Shown one piece after another: positions 2,637 through 32,390 of a stretch of DNA of 39,674 bases. Position numbers and translations under genes: made by a program. The stretch covers positions 1 to 39,674 of the forward strand of contig SHNC01000242.1 of the NCBI GenBank assembly GCA_004295105.1, in the 5' to 3' direction. Position 1 is the first letter of the stretch. The number at the start of each line of letters is the position of its first letter. A model generated the notes under the pieces. The model did no database searches. It was not told where the DNA came from and saw nothing but the letters and a program-made list of their open reading frames with translations. Source of the DNA: Betaproteobacteria bacterium (lineage in GTDB: Bacteria > Pseudomonadota > Gammaproteobacteria > Burkholderiales > Rhodocyclaceae).

Positions 2637-3668
2637 ATGCAAAAACGCCGTTTTTCCGCCCTCATCGCCGGTCTGCTCGCGTCCGCCGCGCTCGGTTTCT
2701 CGCTGCCGGCGCTGTCGGCGACCTACAAGGACGAGTACAAGCTGTCCACCGTGCTGGGCGAGGCCTATCCCTGGGGCTGGGGCGCCAAGCGTTGGGCCGA
2801 CCTGGTGGCCGAGAAGACGCAGGGCCGCATCAAGATCAAGGTCTATCCCGGCGCCTCGCTGGTTTCGGGCGACCAGACCAAGGAATTCACCGCGCTGCGC
2901 CAGGGCGTGATCGACATCGCCGTCGGGTCGACGATCAACTGGTCGCCGCAGATCAAGGAGCTGAATCTCTTCGCGCTGCCCTTCCTGATGCCGGACCACA
3001 AGGCGCTCGATGCGCTGACCCAGGGTCGCGTCGGCAAGAAGGTGTTCGACCTGCTCGGCGAGCGCGACGTGGTGCCGCTGGCCTGGGGCGAGAACGGCTT
3101 TCGCGAGGTGAGCAACTCGAAGAAGCCGATCCGCACGCCGGAAGACCTCAAGGGCCTGAAGATGCGCGTGGTGGGCTCGCCGCTGTTCCTCGCCACCTTC
3201 ACCGCGCTCGGTGCCAACCCGACGCAGATGAGCTGGGCCGACGCGCAGCCGGCGATGGCCACCGGCGCGGTCGACGGTCAGGAGAATCCGCTCGCGGTGT
3301 TCAACGCCGCCAAGCTGCACACCGTGGGCCAGAAGCACCTGACGTTGTGGGGCTACGTCGCCGATCCGCTGATGTTCGTGGTGAACAGGAACGTGTGGAA
3401 CAGTTGGTCGGCGGATGACCAGAAGGCGGTGCGCGAGGCCGCGCTGCAGGCGGCGAAGGAAGAGGTCGCTCGCGCCCGCGCCGGCATTTCCGCCGGCGAT
3501 GACGCGCTGCTGAAGGAGATCCAGGCCAACGGCGTGTCGGTGGTGACGCTCACCGACGCCGAGCGCGGCGCCTTCCGCAAGGCTACCGCCGGCGTGTACA
3601 AGGAATGGGCCGACAAGATCGGCGCCGACCTCGTTAAGCAGGCCGAGGAAGACATCGCCAAGCGCTGA
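2637..3668 (+). CDS. dctP: TRAP transporter substrate-binding protein DctP
   Basis: A 343-residue periplasmic solute-binding protein of the DctP family. It starts with a classical Sec signal peptide of about 28 residues ending LPALSA, preceded by a clear ribosome site (GGGAGAG). The mature protein shows the family pattern: a substrate-binding lobe with AYPWGWGAKRWADLVAEKT, the segment TKEFTALRQGVIDIAVGS, and the long conserved helix region GAVDGQENPLAVF that normally includes carboxylate-contacting positions. TRAP systems import organic acids, and sometimes other solutes, using the sodium gradient; the ligand cannot be deduced. dctQ and dctM follow but are separated from it by 242 bases, most of which is a long palindrome starting at the stop codon. 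This could allow more binding protein than permease to be made. Confidence 0.92.
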   Translation: MQKRRFSALIAGLLASAALGFSLPALSATYKDEYKLSTVLGEAYPWGWGAKRWADLVAEKTQGRIKIKVYPGASLVSGDQTKEFTALRQGVIDIAVGSTINWSPQIKELNLFALPFLMPDHKALDALTQGRVGKKVFDLLGERDVVPLAWGENGFREVSNSKKPIRTPEDLKGLKMRVVGSPLFLATFTALGANPTQMSWADAQPAMATGAVDGQENPLAVFNAAKLHTVGQKHLTLWGYVADPLMFVVNRNVWNSWSADDQKAVREAALQAAKEEVARARAGISAGDDALLKEIQANGVSVVTLTDAERGAFRKATAGVYKEWADKIGADLVKQAEEDIAKR

Positions 3669-3800
3669 TTTTTCGCTGTGTCCCCCCGGGGACGCGCGGG
3701 CCATTCGCTCTGCAGGCTGCGGAACTCGCTTCGCTCGGACAGTCCTCGCCTGCGCCGGGAATGCCCCGCACGTCCCCGGCTACCTGGGTGCTGAAAAATC
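3667..3800. repeat. 134-bp imperfect palindrome between dctP and dctQ
   Basis: The outer ends are GATTTTTC (3667-3674) and its exact reverse complement GAAAAATC (3793-3800). Inside, 3686-3706 pairs with 3759-3779 at 19 of 21 positions. Further in, GCAGGC at about 3713-3718 pairs with GCCTGC at about 3748-3753, around a CTCGCTTCGCTCG core. The left end lies on the dctP stop codon. As RNA this would fold into one long stem-loop. The shape resembles a MITE or REP-type repeat, and similar core sequence is, from memory, common in Rhodocyclales genomes. No target-site duplication or transposase is visible. Confidence 0.7.
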
Positions 3801-3910
3801 GGCCCGGGAACCAACTCTCTCCCGCGACGACTTGCGGCGCTTTGGAAGCGGTCGTGGCAGTGGTTTCTGTGCCCGTCGCACGCCCATCAAAACTCGAACA
3901 TCCCTCCTTC

Positions 3911-4405
3911 ATGCAAACTGATGCTTCACCCGACGGCAGCGCGCACGCTTCTGCGCCGCCCGCATACACCCTCGAGCAGATCCTGTCCGGCGTCGCCATG
4001 GGCCTGATCGTGCTGATCACCTTCGGCAACGTGGTGGCGCGCTATTTCACCTCGCAGTCCTTCGCCGCGACCGAGGAGTTCTCGATCGCGCTGCTGCTGA
4101 TCCTGTCCTTCCTCGGCTCGTCGGCCGCCTTTGCGCTGGATCGCCACATCCGCGTCACCTTCTTCATCGACCTGCTGCCGAAGGCCTGGCGCGCGGCGGC
4201 GGAATGGCTGTCCTTCGTCGTCACCGCGGCGCTGTTCGGCTTCATCGCCTTCTATGCCGGGCGGCTGACCTGGGACCAGTACCGCTTCGAGGAAACCTCG
4301 CCTGCGCTGGGCGTGCCGCAGTGGTGGTACACGATCTGGATGCCGGCGCTGTCGGCGGTGATCGTGCTGCGCCTGGTCGTCACGCGGCTGCGGGGGCGAG
4401 CATGA
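3911..4405 (+). CDS. dctQ: TRAP transporter small permease DctQ
   Basis: A 164-residue membrane protein with four predicted hydrophobic segments, at about residues 25-47, 60-80, 96-120 and 135-158. It carries family-typical residues such as GNVVARYF after the first helix and the ATEEFS segment before the second. DctQ pairs with DctM in the inner membrane and stabilises the transporter. The ATG at 3911 gives the usual family length; the frame is open to 3761 but that part lies in the palindromic element. The stop overlaps the dctM start as ATGA (4402-4405), so translation is coupled. Confidence 0.9.
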   Translation: MQTDASPDGSAHASAPPAYTLEQILSGVAMGLIVLITFGNVVARYFTSQSFAATEEFSIALLLILSFLGSSAAFALDRHIRVTFFIDLLPKAWRAAAEWLSFVVTAALFGFIAFYAGRLTWDQYRFEETSPALGVPQWWYTIWMPALSAVIVLRLVVTRLRGRA

Positions 4406-5685
4406 ACGGCGCGGTGCTGATCGGCCTCTTCCTGCTGACCCTGGTCGCGGGCATGCCGCTGGCGGTGGGCCTGGGCGTGGCCAGCGTCGCCGTGCTGGCG
4501 CTGGCCGGGTTCGACCAGTTGGCGGTGCCCACCAACATCTATGCCGGCATTGCCAAGTATCCGCTGCTGGCGATCCCGATGTTCATCCTCGCCGGCATGA
4601 TCTTCGAGCGCTCCGGTGTGGCGCAGCGCCTGGTGCGTTTCGTCACCGCCATTGTCGGCGAATGGACCGGCTCGCTGGCGGTGGTGGCGGTGCTGGTGTC
4701 GATGCTGCTGGGCGGCATCTCCGGCTCCGGCCCGGCGGATGCGGCAGCGGTGGCCGCGGTGATGCTGCCGTCGATGGTGAAGCGCGGCTATCCGAAGGGC
4801 TTTTCCGCCGGCCTGATCGCCGCGTCGGGTTCGACCGCGATCATCATCCCGCCTTCGGTAGCCTTCATCGTCTATAGCGTGATGGTGCCGGCGGCCACGG
4901 TGCCGGCGCTGTTCGCCGCCGGGCTGTTCCCCGGCATCGTCGCGGCGCTGTGCCTGCTGGTGCCGGCAGTCATCATCAGCCGCCGGCACGGCTTCGGCCG
5001 CGACTACACGGAGCCGCGCCCGCCGCTGGGCAGGAGCTTCATCGACGCGATCTGGGGCCTGCTGGCGCCGGTCATCATCCTCGGCGGCCTGCGCACCGGC
5101 CTGTTCACACCCACCGAGGCGGCGGTGGTGGCGGTGGCCTACGGCATCTTCGTCGGCATGGTGGTGTATCGCAGCATCACGCTGCAGGATCTGTTCCGCC
5201 TGCTGGTCGATGCCGCCGAACTGTCGGCGGTGGTGATGATGATCATCGGCATCGCCTCGGTGTTCGCTTGGGCGGGCAACACGCTGGGCATCTTCGATGC
5301 CGCGGCGAAGGCGCTGGTGGAGATGCATCCGGGACACTGGGGCATGCTGCTGTCGGTGAACCTGCTGCTGCTGGTGGCCGGCATGTTCCTCGACGCGATC
5401 TCGATCTTCCTGATCCTGCTGCCGCTGCTGGTCCCGATCGCCGTCGCGATGGGCTGGGATCTGGTGTGGTTCGGGGTGATGATGACGATCAACCTCGCCA
5501 TCGGCCAGTTCACGCCGCCAATGGCGATCTCGCTGATGATCACCTCGCGCATCGCCGGCATCGGCATGGAGGAGACCTTCCGCTGGGTGATCTGGCTCGT
5601 GCTGGCGATGGGCGCAGGGCTGGCGCTGATGATCGCGTTTCCGCAACTGGCGCTGTGGCTGCCGGCGAGGCTGGGCTATCTGTAG
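4402..5685 (+). CDS. dctM: TRAP transporter large permease DctM
   Basis: A 427-residue, highly hydrophobic protein of the DctM family and of usual length. It holds the sodium/substrate translocation core. Two inverted halves each contain a re-entrant hairpin-like motif: GGISGSGPADAAAVAAVMLPSM in the first half with SGSTAIIIPPS after it, and GMFLDAISIFLILLPLLVP with IGQFTPPMAISL in the second. It overlaps dctQ by four bases. With dctP and dctQ it forms a full TRAP system. Nothing regulatory for it is visible apart from the upstream palindrome. Confidence 0.93.
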   Translation: MNGAVLIGLFLLTLVAGMPLAVGLGVASVAVLALAGFDQLAVPTNIYAGIAKYPLLAIPMFILAGMIFERSGVAQRLVRFVTAIVGEWTGSLAVVAVLVSMLLGGISGSGPADAAAVAAVMLPSMVKRGYPKGFSAGLIAASGSTAIIIPPSVAFIVYSVMVPAATVPALFAAGLFPGIVAALCLLVPAVIISRRHGFGRDYTEPRPPLGRSFIDAIWGLLAPVIILGGLRTGLFTPTEAAVVAVAYGIFVGMVVYRSITLQDLFRLLVDAAELSAVVMMIIGIASVFAWAGNTLGIFDAAAKALVEMHPGHWGMLLSVNLLLLVAGMFLDAISIFLILLPLLVPIAVAMGWDLVWFGVMMTINLAIGQFTPPMAISLMITSRIAGIGMEETFRWVIWLVLAMGAGLALMIAFPQLALWLPARLGYL

Positions 5686-5836
5686 CCGATGTCACGCACG
5701 GAGGGGAAACGGCCCTTTACAACTGATTACCCGGCGTAACACCCTTGCCGGGCCGACTGGCCTATCGTTCGCATGCACCTGAGCGTTGTCACACGCCGGT
5801 GCGATTGCGCCCTTCCCCCACCCGAGGTCCACGACC

Positions 5837-6562
5837 ATGAAATCCGTTACTCCAGCATGGCGCATCTGGGCTCTTGCCCTGGCAGCCGCAGGCGCCCTCG
5901 GCGGGTGCGTGGTGGCGCCGGTGGAACCGTATTACGAGGAGGAGGTTTACCTCTCCCGTCCGGCGCCGCGCGTCGAGTATCGCGGCTACCCGCCCGCGGT
6001 CGACTACATCTGGATCGACGGCTACTGGGACCGTGCCGGACGCGGTTACGACTGGGTGCCGGGCTACTGGGCGCCGCCGCATGAGCGCTGGCGTCTGCAG
6101 CAGCGCATCGAACGCGAACGTGCATGGGAGCGTGAGCGCGAGCGCGCGATCGCCCGTCAGCGCGAACGCGCGCGCGAAGAAGATCGTCGCCGGGATCGCG
6201 AGGACGCGCGCGAACGGGAACGCGAACGGGACCTGGCGCGCGAGCGGGAACGTGAGCGCGAACAGCAGTGGCGCCGCGACCGCGAGCGCCAGCGCGACCT
6301 GGCCAACGAGCGCGAGCGTGCCGAGCAGCGCGATCGCCAGCGCGACCTGGAGCGGGAGCGCCAGCGTGCGCAGGAGCGCGACCGGCAGCGCGAGCAGGAT
6401 GCGGCCCGTCAGCGCGAGCAGGAACGGCGCGCGGAGTGGCTGCGCAATCGCGAGCGTGAACAGGCGCATCGCAACCAGAGCGAGGATGGCCACCCGCGAT
6501 CCGCGGGCGATCGCGAGCGGCCGGACTGGGCCGAGCGCATGCGCCAGATGCAGGAGCGCTGA
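5837..6562 (+). CDS. lipoprotein with YxWxxGYW repeats and a long Arg/Glu-rich helix
   Basis: A 241-residue protein. The signal peptide ends in the lipobox LGGC with Cys24 as the predicted lipidated residue. Two aromatic repeats follow, YIWIDGYWD (57-65) and YDWVPGYWAPP (71-81), the pattern of the WXXGXW/YXWV repeat family found in small envelope proteins. From about residue 84 to 218 the protein is almost only Arg, Glu, Gln, Asp and Ala with an ERER/RQRE pattern. It has essentially no hydrophobic heptads, so it should form a stable single alpha-helix rather than a coiled coil. Outer-membrane anchoring is likely because the residue after Cys24 is Val, not Asp. Function unknown. The ATG at 5837 was chosen because the signal peptide begins there. 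A terminator follows at 6597. Confidence 0.82.
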   Translation: MKSVTPAWRIWALALAAAGALGGCVVAPVEPYYEEEVYLSRPAPRVEYRGYPPAVDYIWIDGYWDRAGRGYDWVPGYWAPPHERWRLQQRIERERAWERERERAIARQRERAREEDRRRDREDARERERERDLAREREREREQQWRRDRERQRDLANERERAEQRDRQRDLERERQRAQERDRQREQDAARQREQERRAEWLRNREREQAHRNQSEDGHPRSAGDRERPDWAERMRQMQER

Positions 6563-6596
6563 TCCGCGTTCGGCAGCGACTTTTCGGATGCATTGC

Positions 6597-6630
6597 GGGT
6601 CGCCTCGTGTCGGGCGGCCCTTTCTCTTTT
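6597..6630 (+). terminator. rho-independent terminator after the lipoprotein gene
   Basis: GGGTCGCC (6597-6604) pairs with GGCGGCCC (6613-6620), an eight-pair stem with one G-U pair and an eight-base loop. TTTCTCTTTT follows directly. It lies 35 bases after the lipoprotein stop codon. Confidence 0.8.
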
Positions 6631-6740
6631 CGGTGATCGCCGTGAATCAGGCCGACCGGGGCCGCCCCGCGGACTCGGGATGCCCGGGTGAGTACGCGTC
6701 GGTCATTGCGCCCCGGTCAATACGCGTGAGCCCGTACGCC

Positions 6741-6779
6741 TGAGTCAGTAGCCCTGAGTCAGTAGCCCTGAGTCAGCAG
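6741..6779. repeat. 14-bp tandem repeat across the tetR stop codon
   Basis: The unit TGAGTCAGTAGCCC occurs at 6741-6754 and 6755-6768, with a third partial copy at 6769-6779. The tetR stop codon (6759-6761 on the minus strand) lies inside the second unit. Because 14 is not a multiple of three, gain or loss of a unit would shift the last codons, although the first copy read still ends near the same residues. Confidence 0.8.
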
Positions 6780-7376
6780 AAGGCGCAAGGTGGCCTGAAA
6801 GCGGCGAGTGACGGCGGCGCGGTCCATCTGTGGATTGCGGATGCCGCGGATCATCAGTCCCTCGAACATCGCCGCCAGCAATTCGACCATGCTGGCAATG
6901 GCGCTGTCATCGTCGTCGTGTCCGTCGGCCCTGCGAATCGCACGCAGCGTGGCAGCAAGGCTGTTGCGGCAGACGTCGTCGGCGCTGCGCACGATGTCCG
7001 CCACATGAGGGTTGCGCGCCGCTTCCGCCACCACTTCCAGCTTGAGCCCGGCCTCGAGCGGCTCGAGGCTGCGGCGCACGCCTTCGGTGACGTGCTCGAT
7101 CATCGCCTCGCGGGTGTCCCGTGCCGCGCGCAGTTCCGCACTCAGCGTCAGCAGGTACTCGAGGTCGCGCTCGACGATCGCGGCGATGATCGCTTCCTTG
7201 TTGTCGAAATAATGATAGATGTGGCCGGCACTCATGCCCGCCACCTTCGAGATCTGAGCAATGCTGGCACCGTGGAAGCCGCTGTTGCGGAAGCAGGTGG
7301 CGGCGGCGCACAGGATCTGCTCGCGCCGGGCTTCGGCACGTTGCTGTTCGGAAGGACTGCGGTGTTCTGCGGACAT
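6759..7376 (-). CDS. TetR/AcrR-family repressor of the adjacent RND efflux operon
   Basis: A 205-residue protein. The N-terminal TetR helix-turn-helix reads REQILCAAATCFRNSGFHGASIAQISKVAGMSAGHIYHYFDNKEAI, at about residues 18-62, with the usual tyrosine-rich recognition helix. The C-terminal ligand domain is variable, as is normal. It is transcribed away from the RND genes, and the 174-base intergenic region holds an inverted repeat over a promoter-like sequence, the usual arrangement for a local pump repressor. The ATG at 7376 is used; a TTG three codons upstream is an alternative. The last codons and stop sit in a 14-bp tandem repeat. The inducer is unknown. Confidence 0.9.
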   Translation of the reverse strand: MSAEHRSPSEQQRAEARREQILCAAATCFRNSGFHGASIAQISKVAGMSAGHIYHYFDNKEAIIAAIVERDLEYLLTLSAELRAARDTREAMIEHVTEGVRRSLEPLEAGLKLEVVAEAARNPHVADIVRSADDVCRNSLAATLRAIRRADGHDDDDSAIASMVELLAAMFEGLMIRGIRNPQMDRAAVTRRFQATLRLLLTQGY

Positions 7377-8761: not shown

Positions 8762-11919
<3,158 letters not shown>

Positions 11920-11920
<1 letters not shown>

Positions 11921-13326
11921 TGAACCGGCTACGCCTATCGACGATCGCCCTCGCCGCCGCGCTGGCGGGGGGCTGCTCGCTGATTCCCGAATACCAGCGC
12001 CCGGCGGCGCCGGTGCCCGCGGTCTTCCCGAACGCTGCGGCGAGCACCGGGGTCGCCGCCGCGCCACAGGCCGACACGCTCGCCTGGCGCGACTACTTCG
12101 CCGACGCGCGGCTGCGCGAGCTGATCGAGCTCGCGCTGACCAACAACCGCGACCTGCGCGTGGCGGCGCTCAATATCGAGCGTGCGCGTGCGCAATACGG
12201 CATCCAGCGCGCCGCGCTGTTTCCGGCCATCGGCGCCACCGCTGCGGAGAACGCTCAGCGCCTTCCGGCCGACCTGAGGCAGGGGGGCGAGGCCGGCATC
12301 AGCCGCCAGTTCAGCGCCACGCTGGGCTTTTCCGCCTACGAGCTGGATTTCTTCGGCCGCGTGCGCAGCCTGAACGAGCAGGCGCTGGAGCAGTATCTCG
12401 CCACCGAGGAAGCACGCCGCAGCGCGCAGATCGCGCTGGTGGCCGAAGTCGCCAACGCCTGGCGGACGCTGGCGGCCGACCGCGAACGCCTGACGCTGGC
12501 GGGCAGCACGCTCGCGACGCGGCAGAAGTCGTACGAGCTGACCAAGCGCAGCTTCGACGCCGGTGCGGTGTCGGCGCTCGACCTGCGCCAGGCAGAAACC
12601 CTGCTCGAGGGTGCCCGCGCCGACATGGCGCGCTACACCACGCTGGTGGCGCAGGACGAGAACGCGCTGGCGCTGGTCGCCGGTGCGCCGGTGCCCGCCG
12701 GGCTGCTGTCGGACAGGCTGGCCGATGCGCTCACCTCGGTGGCCGAACTGCCTGCGGGCGTGCCTTCCGAGGTGCTGGTGCGCCGTCCCGACATCCTGCA
12801 GGCCGAGCGCACGCTGCGTGCCGCCAATGCCAGCATCGGCGCGGCGCGCGCGGCCTTCTTCCCGAGCATCACGCTGACGGCCAGCGCCGGCACCGCGAGC
12901 GCGTCGCTCGACGGTCTGTTCCAGGGCGGTTCGGGCACCTGGAGCTTCCTGCCGCAGATCCGCATCCCGATCTTCGAGGCGGGCCGCCTGCAGGCCAGCC
13001 TCGATGCCGCCGAGATCCAGCGCGACATCAACGTGGCGCAGTACGAGAAGGCCATCCAGGGCGCCTTCCGCGAGGTGGCGGACGCCCTGGCGGTGCGCGC
13101 CAACATTGGTGAACAGCTTGCGGCGCAGCGCAGGCTGGTGGCGGCCACCGCGGAAAGCCTGCGCCTGTCGGACGCGCGCTACCGCGCCGGGGTGGACAGC
13201 TACCTCGGCCTGCTCGATGCGCAGCGTTCGCTGTATGTGGCGGAACAGGCGCTGATCGTGGCGCGCCTGACCGAGGCGAGCAACCGCGTGGCGCTGTACA
13301 AGGCGCTCGGCGGCGGCTGGCAGTAG
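11920..13326 (+). CDS. RND outer-membrane factor lipoprotein (OprM/NodT family)
   Basis: A 468-residue protein. The lipobox LAGGC predicts lipidation at Cys19. Two repeated OEP domains follow, the first with LRELIELALTNNRDLRVAALNIERARAQYGIQRAALFPAI and the second with LRAANASIGAARAAFFPSITLTA and RYRAGVDSYLGLLDAQRSLY. These are the hallmark helices and strands of trimeric channel-tunnels. Length and features match OprM, the exit duct that completes the AcrAB/MexAB-type pump. The start codon at 11920 shares bases with the pump stop, so translation is coupled. No terminator follows, and the next gene starts after 21 bases. Confidence 0.95.
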
Positions 13327-13347
13327 CGACTTGAATCAGGCGCCGCG

Positions 13348-14469
<1,122 letters not shown>

Positions 14470-20101: not shown

Positions 20102-22036
<1,935 letters not shown>

Positions 22037-22158
22037 GTCGTCTCCTCCTGCGGCGCGGTCGCGCCCCACCCGTTGGGGGCGCCGGCCGGTCGCTGACCGT
22101 CGAGCGGTTTCTGAATGTACGGTTCAAGGTTAATCCACGCCGTCAGCCGCCTCAACCG

Positions 22159-22268: not shown

Positions 22269-23843
22269 TCAGAGCTCGCGCCGCTGCATCGCGCCAGCGA
22301 TGTACTCGGCCTGGCGCACCGCCAGCGCGACGATGGTCAGCGTCGGGTTGGCGGCGGAGCTGGAGGTAAACTGGCTGCCGTCGGAGATGAACAGGTTGTT
22401 GATGTCGTGCGTCTGGCCCCACTTGTTCACCACGCCGTCGCGCGCGTTGGCGCTCATGCGGTTGGTGCCCATGTTGTGGCTGGCGGGGTAGGGCGGCATG
22501 TCGATCACCCGGGTGGCGCCCACCGCCTCCGAGACCTTGCGCCACTGCGCCAGGCCGTGGCGGCGCATGGCGGCGTCGTTGGTGTGGTCGGTCTTGCTGA
22601 CGATGGGGATGGGCAGCCCGTACTGGTCCTTCTCGGTGGGATGCAGGCTGATGCCGTTTTCTTCCTGCGGCATGTCCTCGCCGCACACCCACACGCAGCT
22701 CATGTGGTCGTAATGCTCCAGCGCCGAGGTCACTTCGCGGCCCCAGCCGCCCGGCTTCATGAACGCGGCGGTGAAGGGCAGGTGCAGTGCCAGGCCCTCG
22801 AGGTGGTAGCCGCCGAGGAAGCCGCGATCGGGGTTGAGCTGCGCTTCGTCCGAGATCACCGCGGCGATGTCGAAGCCGCGATACATGTACACCGGCCCCT
22901 TGTGGATGGCGATGGCGGCGGCGGTGGTGTGGTTCATGTAGTTCTTGCCGACCTGGCCGGAGGAGTTGGCCAGCCCGTTGGGGAACAGGCTGGAGGCGGA
23001 GTTGAGCAGCAGCCGCGGCGACTCGATCGAGTTGCCGGCCACGCACACCACGCGCGCCTTCTGCAGGTGCTGGCGGCCGTCCTTGTCGGCATAGAGCACG
23101 CCGCTGACCTTGCCGCTCCTGTCGTGCTCGATCTTCAGCACCATGCTCTGCGGCCGCAGCTCTGCGTGGCCGGTGTCGAGCGCGCGCGGGATCTCCGAAT
23201 ACAGCGTCGACCACTTGGCGCCGATCTTGCAGCCCTGCATGCAGAAGCCGATCTGCTGACAGGCGGGGCGGCCGTCGTTGGGCCGGGTGTTGGAGGCGAC
23301 CGGGCGGCTGATGTCGGTGTAGCCCACCTTCTTGGCGCCGGCGGCGATGACCTTGTAGTGGTTGTTGGGCGGCATCTCCGGCAGGCCGCTGGCCCGGGTG
23401 CCGGCGACGCCCATCTTGCGTTCGGCGATATCGTAGTAGGGTGCCAGTTCCTCGTAGCTGATCGGCCAGTCGAGCACATTGGCGCCCCTGACCTCGCCAT
23501 AGGTGCTGCGAATGCGGAAATCGTGCGGCAGGAAGCGCAGCGCCAGCCCCGAGAAGTGCATGGTCGAGCCGCCCACGCCCTTCACGATCCAGGCCGGCAG
23601 GTTGGGATAGGTCTCGGTGTGATGCCAGCCGCCTGCGGAGATGCGCTTGTCCAGCCACGAGATCTTCTTGAACATCGCCCATTCGTCGTTCTCGAAATCG
23701 GCCTGGGTGTAGTGCTTGCCGGCCTCGAGGATGACGACGTCGACGCCGCGCCGGGTCAGTTCGTCGGCCAGCGTGCCACCGCCGGCGCCCGAGCCGACGA
23801 TCACCACCACGCTGTCGTCGTCCAGCGAGAATTTCGCGCTCAT
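22269..23843 (-). CDS. GMC-family FAD-dependent dehydrogenase with 3Fe-4S-type cysteine motif
   Basis: A 524-residue flavoprotein. The FAD-binding motif IVGSGAGGGTLADEL lies at 15-29, and the GMC signature region GVGGSTMHFSGLALRF near 89-104. The catalytic pair is His456 (ASHNMGTNRM) and Asn499 (SSAANPTLTI). Cys195, Cys201 and Cys205 form CX5CX3C, the motif that binds a 3Fe-4S cluster in bacterial FAD-glucose dehydrogenase and related three-subunit enzymes. It has no signal peptide of its own. It is preceded by a Tat-signal small subunit, the usual hitch-hiker export arrangement. The third, cytochrome c subunit of such enzymes is absent here. The ribosome site AGGAGA is strong. Substrate unknown; by context an alcohol or diol whose product enters the E1/E2 complex. 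Confidence 0.9.
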   Translation of the reverse strand: MSAKFSLDDDSVVVIVGSGAGGGTLADELTRRGVDVVILEAGKHYTQADFENDEWAMFKKISWLDKRISAGGWHHTETYPNLPAWIVKGVGGSTMHFSGLALRFLPHDFRIRSTYGEVRGANVLDWPISYEELAPYYDIAERKMGVAGTRASGLPEMPPNNHYKVIAAGAKKVGYTDISRPVASNTRPNDGRPACQQIGFCMQGCKIGAKWSTLYSEIPRALDTGHAELRPQSMVLKIEHDRSGKVSGVLYADKDGRQHLQKARVVCVAGNSIESPRLLLNSASSLFPNGLANSSGQVGKNYMNHTTAAAIAIHKGPVYMYRGFDIAAVISDEAQLNPDRGFLGGYHLEGLALHLPFTAAFMKPGGWGREVTSALEHYDHMSCVWVCGEDMPQEENGISLHPTEKDQYGLPIPIVSKTDHTNDAAMRRHGLAQWRKVSEAVGATRVIDMPPYPASHNMGTNRMSANARDGVVNKWGQTHDINNLFISDGSQFTSSSAANPTLTIVALAVRQAEYIAGAMQRREL

Positions 23844-23885: not shown

Positions 23886-24467
23886 TCAGGCGCCTTCCAG
23901 CCAGTCGATGTCGTCGAAGCCGCGGTTGAGGTAGCCGCCCTTTTCCCAGGACGAGCCCTCGTAGCCGAACAGCGGCCATACCGCCTTGTTGTCGTAGAAG
24001 CCGGTGACCAGATGGCCCTTGACCTTCTGAAAGAAGGCACCGTGCTCGATCACGTAGAGCAGGCTGACGCGGTCGCTCTCCCCGGCGAGGTCGGCGTAGG
24101 CCTTGTTGAAGCGCAGCTTCGACAGCCGGTCGAGCGCGGCCACGCCTTCGGTCAGCAGCTTCTTCAGCTTGTCGTCCGCGGCGGCCTGCGCTTCGAGCGG
24201 CTCGAGCGCCTGCAGGTAATATCGGTCGGAAATGCGGTCGTGCGGGAAGATGTCGCGCGCCAGCACCAGCAGCGTCTTGCCGGTGGCGGCGCCCAGCACC
24301 TTGAAGCTGGCGGCGAGCGCCTCGCGCGCCGGCGTCATCAGGGTGGCGGCCGACAGCGTGCCGACGCCGAGGGCGGCCATGCCGCTGCCCTTGAGGAAGC
24401 CGCGGCGGCTGAGGGTGATGCGCTTGTCGACGACGCGCATCGGCGCGCGCGTGTTTTCGGTGGTCAT
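23886..24467 (-). CDS. Tat-exported gluconate 2-dehydrogenase subunit 3-like small subunit
   Basis: A 193-residue protein with a twin-arginine signal, SRRGFLKGSGMAALGVG, at about residues 20-36 and a cleavage region near AREALA. The mature helical part (ARDIFPHDRISDRYYLQALEPLE...) matches the gluconate 2-dehydrogenase subunit 3 family. These small subunits fold with and carry the GMC catalytic subunit through the Tat pathway. The start ATG at 24467 has a textbook AAGGAG site nine bases upstream. The frame remains open well upstream, into the lipoate-ligase region, but that is out of frame with the ligase and not real. It is followed after 42 bases by the GMC gene. Confidence 0.88.
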   Translation of the reverse strand: MTTENTRAPMRVVDKRITLSRRGFLKGSGMAALGVGTLSAATLMTPAREALAASFKVLGAATGKTLLVLARDIFPHDRISDRYYLQALEPLEAQAAADDKLKKLLTEGVAALDRLSKLRFNKAYADLAGESDRVSLLYVIEHGAFFQKVKGHLVTGFYDNKAVWPLFGYEGSSWEKGGYLNRGFDDIDWLEGA

Positions 24468-24529: not shown

Positions 24530-25318
24530 TCAGGTGTCGTCGTCGGTCGCGAGTTCGCCGAGCACGTCGGCCAGCATCTGCGCCAGGCTCCCGGCGAGGG
24601 TTTCGACGTGCATGGCATTGCCGTGCAGTTCGGCGCACGAGGTGGTGGCGGCTTGCAGCCGGGTGACGTCGGCCGCCGGCCGGTCGAGCGCGCGGCACAG
24701 CAGCGACCAGTCGGGGCGGTAGAGCAGGGTGCCGGTGGTGAGCAGCACGCCGTGCCGGCGGCGCAACTGGGCGAGGCCGACGAGCTTGCGGCCGTCGGCG
24801 ATCACTTCCCACGGTGACAGGCCGCCGAAGCAGGCCCAGGCCAGCGCCGGATCGGACGGCCGGCGCGCGAGTTCGTCCGGCGCCAGCGCATGGGCGGGCA
24901 GGCCGAAGTCGCGCAGCAGGCCGGCATGCAGCACGCCCAGCCAGCGGTAGCTCGACACCGTGCCGCCGGCGAGCAGGCGGTGATCCGGCGGCAGCACCAC
25001 CGAGGACGACAGCATCCAAGGCCCGGTCAGCACCGCGCCGCCGCCGGCGCGGCGCTGCACCAGCTCGCAATCGGTATGCGCCGCCCGCGCCGCCTCGTCG
25101 AACAGCGCCGCCTGGGCGCAGCCGAACACCACGCCGGGTGCCGGGTAGGTCCACACCCGGACCCGTGGCACGGTCACCGGCGCGGCGAGCTGGCGCATGT
25201 TCCAGTCCTGCTCGGCGGCGGCAGGCGCCACGGTCAGCCCACTGCCGACCGGCACGCGCCGGACGGCGGCACTGGCGAAGGGGGTGCGGACGGAGGGGGC
25301 GAGGGCGGCGGCGGGCAT
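24530..25318 (-). CDS. lipoate-protein ligase family protein (short, LplA-like)
   Basis: A 262-residue member of the biotin/lipoate protein ligase fold. It shows the lipoyl-AMP loop RRAGGGAVLTGP (89-100; RRxxGGG in LplA) and the catalytic-lysine segment DGRKLVGLAQ with Lys178. It lacks the C-terminal accessory domain of E. coli LplA (about 337 residues), so by family precedent it may need a separate partner, or may be an octanoyl/lipoyl transferase. The ATG overlaps the E2 stop codon as TGATG, so it is translationally coupled to the complex whose free lipoyl domain it probably modifies. It could instead act on other lipoyl proteins, but the position argues for a dedicated ligase. Confidence 0.82.
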   Translation of the reverse strand: MPAAALAPSVRTPFASAAVRRVPVGSGLTVAPAAAEQDWNMRQLAAPVTVPRVRVWTYPAPGVVFGCAQAALFDEAARAAHTDCELVQRRAGGGAVLTGPWMLSSSVVLPPDHRLLAGGTVSSYRWLGVLHAGLLRDFGLPAHALAPDELARRPSDPALAWACFGGLSPWEVIADGRKLVGLAQLRRRHGVLLTTGTLLYRPDWSLLCRALDRPAADVTRLQAATTSCAELHGNAMHVETLAGSLAQMLADVLGELATDDDT

Positions 25319-26046
25319 CAGTCGAACTCCGCCTGTTCCAGCCGGCGCGCGACCTCGCCGAGGAACAGCGCCGCCGGGTAGCCGTCCACCGCACGGTGGT
25401 CGAACACCAGCGTCAGGTTGGCCACCGGCGCGGCAACGATGGCGCCGTCCTTCACCACCGGGCGCAGCACGCTGCGGCCGACGCCGAGGATGGCCACCTG
25501 CGGCGGGTTGATGATGGGGCTGAAGCGGTCGATGCCGGTGGCGCCGAGGTTGGTCACGGTGAAGGTGCCGCGCTGGTAGGCGCCGCCGGTGAGGGCCCCG
25601 GCGCGGGCGCCCTCGGCAAGCCGGCGGGTTTCCGCCGCCAGTTGCGCCACCGCGAGCGTGTCCGCATTGCGGATTACCGGCACCATCAGGCCGTCGTCGA
25701 GCGCGACGGCGACACCGATGTTGATGTCGTCGACCGGCTCGACCTCCTTCTCGCGCATCAGCGCGTTCAGCCGCGGATGGGCGCGCAGCGCCTGCGCCAC
25801 CGCATGCAGCACGAAGGCATTGACGCTGGGTCGGTCGCCGGCGGCGGCACGCTCCGCGCGCACGGCCTCGACGCGGCTCAGGTCCACATCCACCGAATGT
25901 GCCACCCGCGGCACCTGCCAGCCCAGCCCCATGTTACGGGCGATGGCGCCGCGCAGGCCGACGAGCGGCACGCTGCGGCGCGCGCCCGCAGGCGCGGCAG
26001 CCGGGGAGGGGGCCACGGCGGCGCTCGTCGCCACTGTCGCGCTCAT
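25318..26046 (-). CDS. catalytic-only E2 acyltransferase of a 2-oxoacid/acetoin dehydrogenase complex
   Basis: A 242-residue protein that is only the 2-oxoacid dehydrogenase acyltransferase domain. The catalytic motif DHRAVDG carries His217 and Asp221. Other family segments are VPLVGLRGAIARNM at 26-39, GVAVALDDGLMVPVIRNAD at 111-129, and TFTVTNLGATGIDRFSPIINPPQVAILGVG. The first 24 residues are an Ala/Pro-rich linker remnant. There is no lipoyl domain and no recognisable peripheral-subunit-binding domain, whereas a normal E2 is 370 or more residues. The lipoyl domain is encoded separately by the gene three bases upstream. The complex should transfer an acyl group from lipoamide to CoA. Confidence 0.9.
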   Translation of the reverse strand: MSATVATSAAVAPSPAAAPAGARRSVPLVGLRGAIARNMGLGWQVPRVAHSVDVDLSRVEAVRAERAAAGDRPSVNAFVLHAVAQALRAHPRLNALMREKEVEPVDDINIGVAVALDDGLMVPVIRNADTLAVAQLAAETRRLAEGARAGALTGGAYQRGTFTVTNLGATGIDRFSPIINPPQVAILGVGRSVLRPVVKDGAIVAAPVANLTLVFDHRAVDGYPAALFLGEVARRLEQAEFD

Positions 26047-26049
26047 CGC

Positions 26050-26295
26050 TCAGCCCTCCAGTTGCGCGAGCACCGCGCCGCGGCCGAAGGTGTCCTGCTC
26101 GGCCACGTTCAGCCTGGCGATGCGGCCGGCCGATGGTGCGAAGATCTCGTGGCTGGTCTTCACCAATTCGGCCACTGCCAGAACCTGGCCGGCTTCCACC
26201 GTGTCGCCTTCCTTCACCTGCCATTCCTGCAGCAGCGCTTCGGTGCCTTCATCGACGTCGGCCCACACCGCGTCGTCGAGGATGATGTCGGTCAT
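26050..26295 (-). CDS. free-standing lipoyl domain protein
   Basis: An 81-residue protein that is a single biotinyl/lipoyl domain. The pattern is WADVDEGTEALLQEWQVKEGDTVEAGQVLAVAELVKTSHEIFAPSAGRIARL, and the lipoyl lysine is Lys46 in ELVKTSHEI at the usual hairpin position. There is no flanking linker or second domain. It starts after a good AGGAGA ribosome site and is followed three bases later by the catalytic E2. It lies 21 bases after E1 beta. Biotin domains usually have MKM at the modified turn, so lipoylation is favoured, and a lipoate ligase gene lies two genes downstream. It is likely the swinging arm of this complex as a mobile carrier protein. Confidence 0.9.
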   Translation of the reverse strand: MTDIILDDAVWADVDEGTEALLQEWQVKEGDTVEAGQVLAVAELVKTSHEIFAPSAGRIARLNVAEQDTFGRGAVLAQLEG

Positions 26296-26316: not shown

Positions 26317-27351
26317 TCAATCAAGCTTGAAAGTCATCAGGCCGCGCACGCTGGCGACGATGTTGTCCACCTGGGGAATGGCGAACTGTTCGAGCGGGCG
26401 GCTGAACGGGATGGGCACGTCGGGCACCGCGAGGCGGCGCACCGGGGCCTTGAGGCGGAGGGTGTCGAGGTTTTCAGCCACCAGCGCGGCGATCTCGCCG
26501 GACAGGCCGAAACTGAGGTAGTCCTCGTCGGCGACCAGCAGCCGGCCGGTGCGCTGCACCGACTTCAGCACCGCGGCGCGGTCGAGTGGCACCAGCGTGC
26601 GCAGGTCGAGGACTTCGGCAGAAATACCTTCCGCGGCGAGCCGGTCGGCGGCGAGCACCGACTTCTGCACCATCTGCGACAGGGTCACGATGGTGACGTC
26701 GCTGCCCTCGCGCACCACGCGCGCCTGGCCGAAGGGAATGGTGTATTGCTCCTCCGGCACTTCGTTGGTGCTGCCCTCGAAGTACGACATCCAGGACAGC
26801 CCCATGATGCCCTTGTGGTAGAGGAAGACCACCGGGTTGTCGTCGCGGATCGCGGTCGTCATCAGCCCCTTGGCGTCGTAGGCGTTGGACGGCACCACCA
26901 CCTTGAGGCCGGGCACGTGGGCGAAGATCGAGTACAGGCACTGCGAGTGCTGGGCGGCGTCGTTGTAGCCGCCGCCGATGCCGGTGGTGATGACCAGCGG
27001 GTACCTGCAGGCGCCGCCCGACATGTAGTGGTTCTTGGCGATGTGGTTGTAGATCTGGTCGAAGCAGACACCGAAGAAGTCGACGAACATCAGCTCCGAG
27101 ATCGGCCGCAGGCCCTCGGCGGCGGCGCCGAGCGCGGCGCCCATGAAGCCGGTTTCAGAGATCGGCGTGTCCATCACGCGCTCCGGCCCGAACTGGTCGA
27201 GCAGCCCGGTGGTGGCGCTGAAAATGCCGCCGTACTTGCCGACGTCCTCGCCCATGACGAAGACGCGCGGGTCGCGCGCCATTTCCTGCGCGGTCGCTTC
27301 GGAGATCGCCTGCGCCATGGTCAGGCGGCGGGTGGTGGTGTTGGTGCTCAT
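26317..27351 (-). CDS. thiamine-diphosphate dehydrogenase E1 beta subunit (AcoB/PdhB-like)
   Basis: A 344-residue transketolase-like E1 beta. It opens with TMAQAISEATAQEMARDPRVFVMGEDVGKYGGIF, whose Glu in GED activates thiamine diphosphate, and contains RVMDTPISETGFMGAALGAA and VPSNAYDAKGL typical of the family. The C-terminal transketolase domain (VLDLRTLVPLDRAAVLKSVQRTGRLLVADED) is complete. Two starts are possible: the ATG at 27351 with CAGGAG at the right spacing, chosen here, or an ATG at 27372 overlapping the E1 alpha stop. It forms a heterotetramer with E1 alpha. Similarity is to acetoin and branched-chain type E1 enzymes; the substrate cannot be fixed by eye. Confidence 0.93.
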   Translation of the reverse strand: MSTNTTTRRLTMAQAISEATAQEMARDPRVFVMGEDVGKYGGIFSATTGLLDQFGPERVMDTPISETGFMGAALGAAAEGLRPISELMFVDFFGVCFDQIYNHIAKNHYMSGGACRYPLVITTGIGGGYNDAAQHSQCLYSIFAHVPGLKVVVPSNAYDAKGLMTTAIRDDNPVVFLYHKGIMGLSWMSYFEGSTNEVPEEQYTIPFGQARVVREGSDVTIVTLSQMVQKSVLAADRLAAEGISAEVLDLRTLVPLDRAAVLKSVQRTGRLLVADEDYLSFGLSGEIAALVAENLDTLRLKAPVRRLAVPDVPIPFSRPLEQFAIPQVDNIVASVRGLMTFKLD

Positions 27352-27368: not shown

Positions 27369-28379
27369 TCATTCCGCGAACACGTGCAGCAGCGCGTCCT
27401 GCGGTTCCGGGTAGGGGCTGTTGCGGCCGAAGTCGTAGGCCGCCTGCACGCGCCCCGACACCCGCGCACGCAGCGCGGCGTCGGCCGCGTCGTCGAGCAG
27501 GCCGCGTGCGCGCAGCACGGCGCCGAGCGCCGGGATGGGGTCGTGCTGGCGCAGCTCTTTCGCTTCGCCCTTGGGCCGGTAGGTCTCGGGGTCGCCCTGG
27601 AAGTGGCCGAAGTAGCGGTCGGTCTTGACCTCGATCAGCGTCGGCCCGTCGCCGCGCCGGGCACGCGCCACCGCCTCGCCGGCCGCGGTGAAAACCGCGA
27701 GCGCATCGTTCCGTTCCACCAGCACGCCGGGCATGCCGTAGGCCACCGCGCGGTCGGCGTTGGAGGCGATCGCGGTCGACGCGGACTTCTCCACCGAGAT
27801 GCCGTACTTGTTGTCCTCGACCACGAACACCACCGGCAGCCTCCACAGCGCAGCGAGGTTGAGCGCCTCGTGGAAGGCGCCCTGGTTGGCCGCGCCCTCG
27901 CCGAAGAAGGCGATCGCCACCGCGTCGGTGCCCAGCTTCTTCGCCGCAAGCGCGGCGCCGCAGGCCTGTGGCGCGCCGGCGCCGACGATGCCGCTGCAGG
28001 AGAACTTCACCGCCGGGTCGAACAGGTGCATGTGGCCGCCCTTGCCGCGACCGAGGCCGGTGGCCTTGCCGAACATCTCGGCGGTCATCGCGTTCAGGTC
28101 GACGTCCTTGGCGATGGCGAAGTGATGTGGGCGATGTGCGCCGACCACCGTGTCGTCGCGCCGCAGGTGGGCGCACACGCCGACCGCCACCGGCTCCTGG
28201 CCGGCCGCCAGGTGCATCTCGCCCGGCACCGGGCCGGCGCCGATGTCGAAGGCCAGGCCCTTCTGGATCTTCGGCGGCAGCTTGGCCTCGAGATAGACGC
28301 GGGACATGGTTTCCTCGTAGTCCCGGATCTCGATCATCTTTTCGTACATCCACCGCAATTGCTCGGCAGTCGCTTCCAT
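27369..28379 (-). CDS. thiamine-diphosphate dehydrogenase E1 alpha subunit (AcoA/PdhA-like)
   Basis: A 336-residue E1 alpha, slightly longer than AcoA. Motifs include MHLAAGQEPVAVGVCAHL, GRGKGGHMHLFD and GIVGAGAPQACGAALA. The thiamine-diphosphate motif is FFGEGAANQGAFHEALNLAA, with GEG at 160-162 where most E1 enzymes have GDG, closing at Asp189-Asn190 (DNKYGIS). The phosphorylation-loop-like HFQGDPETYRPKGE is present. It is the first gene of the operon. The ATG at 28379 is preceded by AGGAGG. A sigma-54-type promoter lies about 105 bases upstream. The complex probably cleaves an acyloin or decarboxylates a 2-oxoacid, passing the acyl group to the separate lipoyl protein. Confidence 0.93.
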   Translation of the reverse strand: MEATAEQLRWMYEKMIEIRDYEETMSRVYLEAKLPPKIQKGLAFDIGAGPVPGEMHLAAGQEPVAVGVCAHLRRDDTVVGAHRPHHFAIAKDVDLNAMTAEMFGKATGLGRGKGGHMHLFDPAVKFSCSGIVGAGAPQACGAALAAKKLGTDAVAIAFFGEGAANQGAFHEALNLAALWRLPVVFVVEDNKYGISVEKSASTAIASNADRAVAYGMPGVLVERNDALAVFTAAGEAVARARRGDGPTLIEVKTDRYFGHFQGDPETYRPKGEAKELRQHDPIPALGAVLRARGLLDDAADAALRARVSGRVQAAYDFGRNSPYPEPQDALLHVFAE

Positions 28380-31068: not shown

Positions 31069-31109
31069 TTGACCGCTGCGGGTAAAAAGAGGTATTTTTG
31101 ATACATGTT
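31069..31109 (+). promoter_or_regulatory. hmp promoter with NsrR-type operator
   Basis: TTGACC (31069-31074), an 18-base spacer and TATTTT (31093-31098) make a plausible sigma-70 promoter. Over the -10 box, positions 31087-31109 match the 23-base NsrR consensus derived in enterobacteria at 19 positions, with half-sites AAGAGGTATTT and GATACATGTT. Binding of NsrR would block RNA polymerase, and nitric oxide would relieve it. The nsrR gene lies directly after hmp. Confidence 0.8.
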
Positions 31110-31190
31110 AAAGAGGCGGCAGCCGTTCGAAGACTTGTCGCCCTTCCCGTTTTCCCTCCCCCTCCCACCCGGATTCACTTTGGAGTACCC

Positions 31191-32390
31191 ATGGACGAAA
31201 AAGTACGCAGCCTCGTGAAGGCGACGGTTCCCGTTCTGAAAGAGCATGGCGTGGCGCTGACCACCTATTTTTATCAGCGCATGTTCCGCCACAATCCCGA
31301 GCTCAAGCACCTCTTCAACCGCACCCACCACGAGTCGGGCAAGCAGGCCACCGCGCTCGCCATGTCCGTGCTCGCCTATGCCGAAAACATCGATGATCCG
31401 TCGGTGCTGGCGCCCGTCATCACGCTGATCACCAACAAGCACGCCAGCATCGGCATTCGCGCCGAGCACTACCCCATCGTCGGCAAGCACCTGCTGGCCT
31501 CGATCAAGGAAGTGCTGGGCGATGCGGCGAGCGACGAGCTGATCGATGCCTGGGCGGTGGCCTATGGGGCGCTGGCCGACCTCTTCATCGAGGCGGAGAG
31601 CAAGCTGTACGGCGAAATCGCCAACCGCGACGGCGGCTGGAGCGGCTGGCGCGCCTTCCGCATCGTCGACAAGGTGAAGGAAAGCGAGCAGATCACCTCC
31701 TTCTACTTGGCGCCGGCCGACGGCGGCACGCTGCCCCACTACCGCGCCGGCCAGTACATCTCGGTGCGAGTGTACGTGCCGGAATGGGAAGTCATGCAGC
31801 CGCGGCAGTACACGCTGTCCGAGGCGCCGGGCGCGTCCTACCTGCGCATTTCGGTCAAGCGCGAGCCGGGCGGCGACGACACGCCGGCCGGCCGCGTGTC
31901 CAACCTGCTGCATGGCAAGTTCGACAAGGGCGACATCATCGATGTCGCGCCGCCGTTCGGCGACTTCTTCCTGCACGAGGATCGTGACACGCCGGTGGTG
32001 CTGATCAGCGGCGGCGTCGGCATCACGCCCATGGTGGCGATGCTGAACCGGCTGGCGACGACCGCGAAGGGGCGCGACGTGCAGTTCATTCATGCCAGCC
32101 GCAATGCCGGTGCATATGCGTTCGGTGCGCATCTGGCGAAGGTCGCCGCGGAAAACAGCCAGGTCGGGCTGCACGTATTCTTCGACGAGGGTCCGGCGGC
32201 CTTGCCGGCACGGGTCGGTATGCTGAACCTGCGCGAGCTCGGCGACACCGTGCTGAAACCGCAGGCCGACTACTACCTGTGCGGGCCGTCGGAGTTCATG
32301 GACGCGCACATCCGCGTGCTGCATGAGCTCGGCGTCGGCTCCGAGCGCATCCACGCCGAGGTGTTCAGCACCGGCGGCGTGGCGGTGTGA
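31191..32390 (+). CDS. hmp: flavohaemoglobin, nitric oxide dioxygenase
   Basis: A 399-residue three-domain protein of standard length. The globin domain (1 to about 140) has the distal Tyr28 (YFYQRMF), Gln52 and the proximal haem ligand His84 (NKHASIGI). The FAD domain (about 150-255) carries QPRQYTLSEAPG. The NAD domain shows SGGVGITPMVAML and YYLCGPSEFM. It oxidises nitric oxide to nitrate with O2 and NAD(P)H in the cytoplasm, protecting respiratory enzymes during denitrification or nitrosative stress. The ATG at 31191 follows TTGGAG. An NsrR-like operator covers the promoter about 90 bases upstream, and nsrR follows after 74 bases, suggesting a self-limiting regulatory unit. Confidence 0.96.
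   Translation: MDEKVRSLVKATVPVLKEHGVALTTYFYQRMFRHNPELKHLFNRTHHESGKQATALAMSVLAYAENIDDPSVLAPVITLITNKHASIGIRAEHYPIVGKHLLASIKEVLGDAASDELIDAWAVAYGALADLFIEAESKLYGEIANRDGGWSGWRAFRIVDKVKESEQITSFYLAPADGGTLPHYRAGQYISVRVYVPEWEVMQPRQYTLSEAPGASYLRISVKREPGGDDTPAGRVSNLLHGKFDKGDIIDVAPPFGDFFLHEDRDTPVVLISGGVGITPMVAMLNRLATTAKGRDVQFIHASRNAGAYAFGAHLAKVAAENSQVGLHVFFDEGPAALPARVGMLNLRELGDTVLKPQADYYLCGPSEFMDAHIRVLHELGVGSERIHAEVFSTGGVAV

Follow-up and report, generated by a model that had tools for sequence, protein, structure and literature searches.

The window, by which we mean the whole 39,674-nucleotide stretch of betaproteobacterial DNA that was analyzed, carries an operon for the parts of a ThDP-dependent dehydrogenase in which the lipoyl arm and the acyltransferase core of E2 are encoded by adjacent genes. 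Read along the minus strand, the gene order is E1 alpha, E1 beta, LIP, E2 core, LPL, Tat protein, GMC oxidoreductase, and sigma-54 regulator:

27369–28379, minus strand: E1 alpha subunit, ThDP-dependent dehydrogenase, 336 aa (PF00676, E 3.1e-75)
26317–27351, minus strand: E1 beta subunit, 344 aa (PF02779 and PF02780; NF006667 above cut-off)
26050–26295, minus strand: LIP, lone lipoyl-domain protein, 81 aa, presumed lipoyl Lys46 (PF00364, E 3.2e-12)
25318–26046, minus strand: E2 core, acyltransferase catalytic domain alone, 242 aa, His217 and Asp221 (PF00198, E 4.6e-68)
24530–25318, minus strand: LPL, single-domain lipoate/octanoate-protein ligase-like, 262 aa (PF21948, E 3.1e-12)
23886–24467, minus strand: small Tat-signal protein, gluconate 2-dehydrogenase subunit 3-like (PF13618, PF10518, TIGR01409)
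22269–23843, minus strand: GMC-family FAD oxidoreductase, 524 aa (PF00732, PF05199)
20102–22069, minus strand: sigma-54-dependent regulator (PF00158, E 1.9e-65; PF02954)

LIP and the E2 core are separate genes with the lengths and positions given in an earlier note that was made from the sequence alone; lipoyl, subunit-binding, and catalytic domains joined in one E2 chain are not found in this operon. The core and LPL genes overlap within TGATG. E1 alpha scores 282.7 bits against TIGR03182, under the cut-off of 393.85, and the Pfam and NCBIfam matches of E1 beta were computed on a stretch without its first 7 residues. For the Tat protein, the start codon of which was picked by eye, PF13618 and PF10518 fall slightly below the Pfam cut-offs and the Tat signal (TIGR01409) lies above the NCBIfam cut-off. 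Elsewhere in the window, an ORF on the plus strand (31098–32390) with globin-like and reductase-like sequence resembles, by eye, a flavohemoglobin.

Domains and conserved residues

LIP has lipoyl/biotinyl-type Pfam matches, with Biotin_lipoyl (PF00364) found at E 0.001; at the same threshold it does not match GCV_H (PF01597), and it scores 23.4 bits against NCBIfam gcvH (cut-off 115.85). Among solved structures, E. coli AceF matches it best, so the earlier note's likening of LIP to the glycine-cleavage H protein holds as an analogy but not as a family assignment. Biotin carriers rank close behind the E2 lipoyl domains, so LIP could in principle be biotinylated instead. When the window LIP is aligned with 39 chosen relatives, W11, W25, Val45, and Lys46 are invariant in all 40 rows. 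The predicted structure is mostly beta (mean pLDDT 91.7).

In the window core, PF00198 (residues 23–240) is the sole Pfam domain, and PF02817 (E3_binding) is absent at E 0.001; both results agree with the proposal that this protein is an acyltransferase domain alone, without a tether and with no visible site to hold E1 or E3. PF00198 is likewise the only Pfam family matched in all 27 aligned split cores, none of which matches PF02817 or PF00364 at E 0.01; four further split cores also match neither. As a control, the fused E2 of locus L093 matches both PF02817 and PF00364, and that of L090 matches PF00364 alone. The latter (9112–10434, from a Marinimicrobia MAG) is a fused lipoyl-E2 with no subunit-binding domain match and is possibly an intermediate form.

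The window core has the sequence FDHRAVDG near its C-terminus, and DHRxxDG is present in 37 of 38 split cores, the other (L097) being an annotated CDS that stops short of it. The predicted structure (mean pLDDT 81.6, with the N-terminal tail and residues 33–43 below 50) matches E2 catalytic domains, with 3mae_C as the best Foldseek match (E 8.9e-24, TM 0.75). In 28 betaproteobacterial split cores the tail extends 19–22 residues past DHRxxDG and has no hydrophobic run; the tails of E. coli AceF and SucB (22 and 24 residues past the motif) have one. In canonical E2 the terminal 3-10 helix forms the trimer–trimer contact (PMC10415282; this and the other PMC sources are cited as far as their available passages go), so the split core may be a trimer. 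However, the tail is a weak sign of oligomer state, since the split core of Halobaculum (L096) retains a hydrophobic tail and some fused E2s (L004, L093, L106) have none.

LPL matches PF21948 above cut-off, that is, it contains an LplA/B catalytic domain with the conserved lysine (Lys178 in RK(I/L)(V/A)GLAQ, invariant in 18/18 aligned rows); its matches to the NCBIfam ligase models are far below their cut-offs. The small accessory domain is not matched, and the 262 residues contain the catalytic domain only. The genome has one other LplA/B-type gene. No E3 match is found on the contig of the window; the single E3 above cut-off in the genome adjoins another E2 on a different contig (C35).

The junction between LIP and the core

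In the window, LIP and the core are in the same frame, separated by TGA-GCG-ATG (one stop and one codon); by eye, AGGAGA precedes the LIP start and GGAGG precedes the core start. The shared frame is what one E2 gene interrupted by an in-frame stop would present, whether through sequencing error, nonsense mutation, or read-through, and the Ala/Pro-rich N-terminus of the window core resembles a linker remnant. The earlier note's statement that the pair is not a frameshift is true, but with both genes in one frame that statement does not by itself exclude an in-frame stop; the junctions of the relatives do. Among 38 junctions (the window, 29 relatives with the split pair, and 8 plasmid loci), 18 are in frame, with TGA or TAG as the stop, but 20 are in another frame, and in 11 of these 20 an ATG overlaps the LIP stop. 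All three stop codons are used (TGA 26, TAG 10, TAA 2), and the 28 betaproteobacterial split cores form a single clade (see below). The out-of-frame junctions rule out a broken, read-through, or frameshifted gene as the general account, and we consider an interrupted E2 gene extremely improbable; judged from these junctions, LIP and the core are confirmed as two real genes and not a sequencing artefact.

Occurrence of the split pair

Relatives were collected with an E1 beta scan of named genomes, from which the best 80 of at least 434 confirmed loci were retained. Profile annotation of the window and these 80 loci identifies the split pair in 30 (class A), LIP and LPL with no E2 core in 29 (class B), and LIP alone in 16 (class C). 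Three others (L073, L081, L082) have LIP alone on contigs that end too early, two (L090, L093) have a fused E2, and the contig of one (L069) ends inside E1 beta. LIP is therefore without a neighboring E2 core in 45 of the 75 classified loci. Throughout these 75, LIP is located directly behind E1 beta, and the core, where adjacent, directly behind LIP; within the span of their contigs, the 30 class A loci all keep the order E1 alpha–E1 beta–LIP–core–LPL. The GMC and Tat proteins accompany 27/30 class A, 0/29 class B, and 0/16 class C loci and the sigma-54 regulator 27/30, 3/29, and 0/16, respectively, with contigs that end less than 3.5 kb from E1 beta in 3 class A, 4 class B, and 4 class C loci. 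Most of the 80 loci are labelled Betaproteobacteria; L077 (Chloroflexi), L090, and L093 are MAGs with affiliations as labelled. In class C locus L078, the contig begins with the end of another E2, 3.7 kb upstream of E1 alpha; we take this fragment to be part of a different complex.

Split pairs are also found on plasmids of Halobaculum, Aminobacter, Rhodococcus opacus (adjoining lipA), Gemmobacter, Sphingomonas, Phaeobacter, Roseibium, and Paracoccus, and the entire operon recurs on the Gemmobacter and Phaeobacter plasmids; these loci are a selection among the matches listed, from lists of 494 and 183 records. The pair is therefore not a lone oddity but recurs in other bacteria and in haloarchaea. 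LPL as a tblastn query gave no match against plasmids; a profile search identifies it in plasmid loci L099, L103, L112, and L113 and, more weakly, in L097. Other plasmid matches carry a fused E2 (L105, L106, L111). In even draws of genomes, LIP is rare: it occurs in 4 of 200 genomes of the order and in at least 2 of 398 of the phylum (at most 13 candidates scored per genome), the window's own genome included in both. Two of the other three order genomes are class B (G126, G153), and the third (G049) has a separate arrangement.

Several loci depart from the common layout. In G049 (L011), some 2 kb separate a lone LIP (9315–9647) from an E1 alpha/beta set and a fused lipoyl-E2 on the opposite strand. 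On a Shinella plasmid (L102, NZ_OZ000533.1, 978–6612), a lone lipoyl gene and a lone core are separated by glpD-like and aldolase genes; its E1 beta has no insert (see below), and the split here seems to have arisen independently, within a sugar-catabolic cluster. On a Variovorax plasmid (L095, NZ_CP070344.1), a LIP relative (9007–9237) has no E1 beta match within 9 kb; judged by eye, the ORF in front of it is similar to a nucleoside phosphorylase. In L091, a Glycos_transf_3 gene follows the E1–LIP–LPL genes.

The plasmid records of the eight genera with the pair (Halobaculum to Paracoccus, above) name the two genes 'lipoyl domain-containing protein' and '2-oxo acid dehydrogenase subunit E2', and in five plasmid records both genes already bear generic domain names. 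A 2007 paper on Haloferax volcanii reportedly mentions an unattached lipoyl domain. We found no description of the LIP/core pair in the open-licence literature, including the available passages of PMC3904984, PMC6067878, PMC8305020, PMC10332631, PMC10415282, PMC6270654, PMC8146983, PMC3543383, and PMC4377017; for Haloferax oadh operons 2 and 3, 'no substrate was identified' (PMC8305020). The split pair is recurrent and unnamed in the literature and records searched. It is also an annotation gap, with generic domain names only in the records examined. The adjoining ligase-like gene, the wide occurrence of the pair, and the large number of relatives with LIP but no neighboring E2 go beyond what the earlier note described.

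Phylogeny and the E1 beta insert

In a tree of the E2 cores (48 rows, careful method; class A L020 with a frameshift, class A L036 at a contig end, and the other E2 of L078 were left out), the 28 betaproteobacterial split cores form one clade (100/100), and the fused/split label requires 5 changes. A single origin is rejected when the 37 split rows without L102 are constrained to one clade (p-AU 4e-5). The state thus appears to have changed more than once; the tree has long branches and the number of origins is unsure. An E1 beta tree (89 rows, quick method) requires 4 changes in the presence of E2; in it, 27 E2-less rows are grouped (SH-aLRT 98), and the window-type E1 beta is separate from an AcoB-like copy in L038.

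The window-type E1 beta contains an insert of about 8 residues (the HKGIMGLSWMSYFEGS loop) that is absent from the four solved E1 beta chains aligned. It is present in 30/30 class A, 29/29 class B, 16/16 class C, 8/9 plasmid split, and 2/4 fused loci, and it is missing in the AcoB-like copy of L038 and in L102, L105, and L106. The two fused-E2 members that have it are L090 and L093, so the insert marks the E1 family and not the split.

Relatives with no adjacent E2

In nine class B and C genomes (L037, L039, L049, L055, L070, L074, L080, L088, and L092; five isolates and four MAGs as labelled), the open frame around every PF00198 match, counted stop to stop, is 422 aa or longer. In six class A genomes, the frames that hold the lone cores measure 234–273 aa; these six have three other short PF00198 frames (257, 314, and 325 aa), two of which lie less than 300 bases from where a contig starts. 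With no short frame in 9/9 E2-less genomes, the case against a lone core located elsewhere in them is strong, not absolute. An alternative acyltransferase beside the operon was also sought; among 33 neighboring proteins of the E2-less loci, picked mostly one per protein cluster, none has a Pfam match to the acyltransferase families.

Other neighbors of these loci include AMP-binding (acyl-CoA-synthetase-like) enzymes near L050 and L074 and NAD-kinase-like proteins, which we take to be AcoX-like, near L064 and L080. In a Rubrivivax MAG (L038, 3619–6750, minus strand), a second E1 alpha/beta set and an NAD-kinase-like (AcoX-like) gene adjoin the E2-less operon. In L056, a cysteine-rich CCG-domain protein (11803–13845) lies beside the operon, and its cluster is common to L058 and L068; such a domain also occurs in Hdr B subunits, and the protein is a possible redox partner.

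With no adjacent core in any of the 45 loci of classes B and C, LIP may hand its load elsewhere in much of the family. We tentatively suggest, as a reading somewhat more doubtful than probable, that a Burkholderiales branch runs E1 alpha/beta with a free lipoyl carrier, often with its own ligase and with no E2, and that the acyl-lipoyl carrier is handed to some other acceptor, which may be another enzyme, a thiol, or hydrolysis. If so, the branch would shuttle acyl groups in a way that falls outside the classical E1-E2-E3 scheme, and the split E2 of the window would be the form whose transferase is already a detachable part. This branch is the most surprising part of the distribution, and the place where a real surprise could lie; it raises the question of what else accepts the acyl group from a lipoyl protein.

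Comparison with known systems

The usual explanation for the efficiency of 2-oxoacid dehydrogenases is a swinging arm tethered to a large core. The operon resembles the acetoin/pyruvate-type complexes (E1 alpha2beta2, E2, and E3) in its E1 alpha/beta families, its E2 catalytic fold with HxxxDG, and its lipoyl fold; unlike those complexes, its E2 is two proteins with no subunit-binding domain found, the operon has no E3, and E1 beta has the 8-residue insert. The split pair calls into question the need for dehydrogenase parts joined in one chain, and the occurrence of untethered versions over many genera in Pseudomonadota, Actinomycetota, and haloarchaea would allow a direct test of tethering and cage formation.

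Other systems share single features with the operon. In Hdr-like sulfur oxidation, the free lipoyl protein LbpA is also encoded beside a ligase gene (PMC6067878, PMC10332631), and an active ligase of that system, like LPL, has no small accessory domain (PMC6067878); however, LbpA resembles GcvH and has Hdr proteins as its partners, whereas LIP is closer to the lipoyl domains of E2 and is encoded beside E1 genes. In the actinobacterial PDH/ODH system (PMC10415282), one E2 is believed to supply its lipoyl domains to sites on another protein, OdhA, and the core of that E2 is a trimer; there the arm is still within the E2 chain and trimers result from a 3-residue insert, whereas here the C-terminal tail is short. 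The acetoin cluster of Pelobacter carbinolicus (PMC3543383) combines its own lipoylation genes and AcoR regulators with the dehydrogenase, but the former are an octanoyltransferase and a lipoyl synthase (acoS), and the available text describes no split E2. Single-domain lipoyl proteins have been noted in archaeal genomes (PMC3904984), where the passages available do not describe pairing with a lone E2 core.

Proposed cycle and alternatives

We propose that the operon probably encodes a ThDP-dependent dehydrogenase in which E2 acts in trans as two proteins, with LIP shuttling the acyl group from E1 to a free core. LPL would attach lipoate or octanoate to Lys46 of LIP; E1 alpha/beta would cleave a 2-oxoacid or an alpha-hydroxyketone/alpha-diketone and reductively acylate the lipoyl group; acyl-LIP would diffuse to the core, which would pass the acyl group to CoA; and an E3 borrowed from a different complex of the cell would reoxidise dihydrolipoyl LIP. 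E1 may be fed by an alcohol that the adjacent Tat/GMC pair oxidises. The domain content, DHRxxDG, Lys46 and the ligase lysine, the predicted folds, the gene order, the recurrence on plasmids, the single E3, and the junctions support this reading, and LIP as a diffusible carrier is a plausible prediction.

A free carrier forgoes active-site coupling, which counts against the cycle in trans, and a non-covalent complex that is invisible in sequence could still hold the parts together. If the E1 beta insert or the N-terminal LIP motif (W11, W25) docked LIP on E1 or on the core, the arm would not be diffusible; the insert is present in every class A, B, and C locus and in all but one of the plasmid split loci, it is absent from the AcoB-like copy of L038, from L102, and from the fused-E2 loci L105 and L106, and both tryptophans are invariant. 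However, the insert also occurs with the fused E2s of L090 and L093 and so is tied to the E1 family, and we regard a stable docked complex as unlikely. Still less probable, in our judgment, is that LIP is an electron or regulatory carrier like LbpA and that the core is a side activity. The precedent of LbpA with its own single-domain ligase (PMC6067878), the 45 classified loci in which LIP has no adjacent core, and the CCG-domain neighbor at class B L056 favor such a role; against it, in the classified loci LIP directly follows E1 beta and any adjacent core directly follows LIP. Exceptions to this order are Shinella, and Variovorax L095 and G049, in which LIP has no adjacent E1 of this family.

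We also considered the gene context as a guide to the substrate of the dehydrogenase. The neighbors are mixed, with a PQQ dehydrogenase and cytochrome c at class A L022 and sugar or aromatic genes at plasmid loci, and they give no single answer. In L022, the PQQ-type dehydrogenase and cytochrome c genes (2967–6792, assigned with Pfam) are divergent from the operon; like divergent clusters are found in L020 and L023–L025, as judged by protein clusters, with Pfam applied to L022 only.
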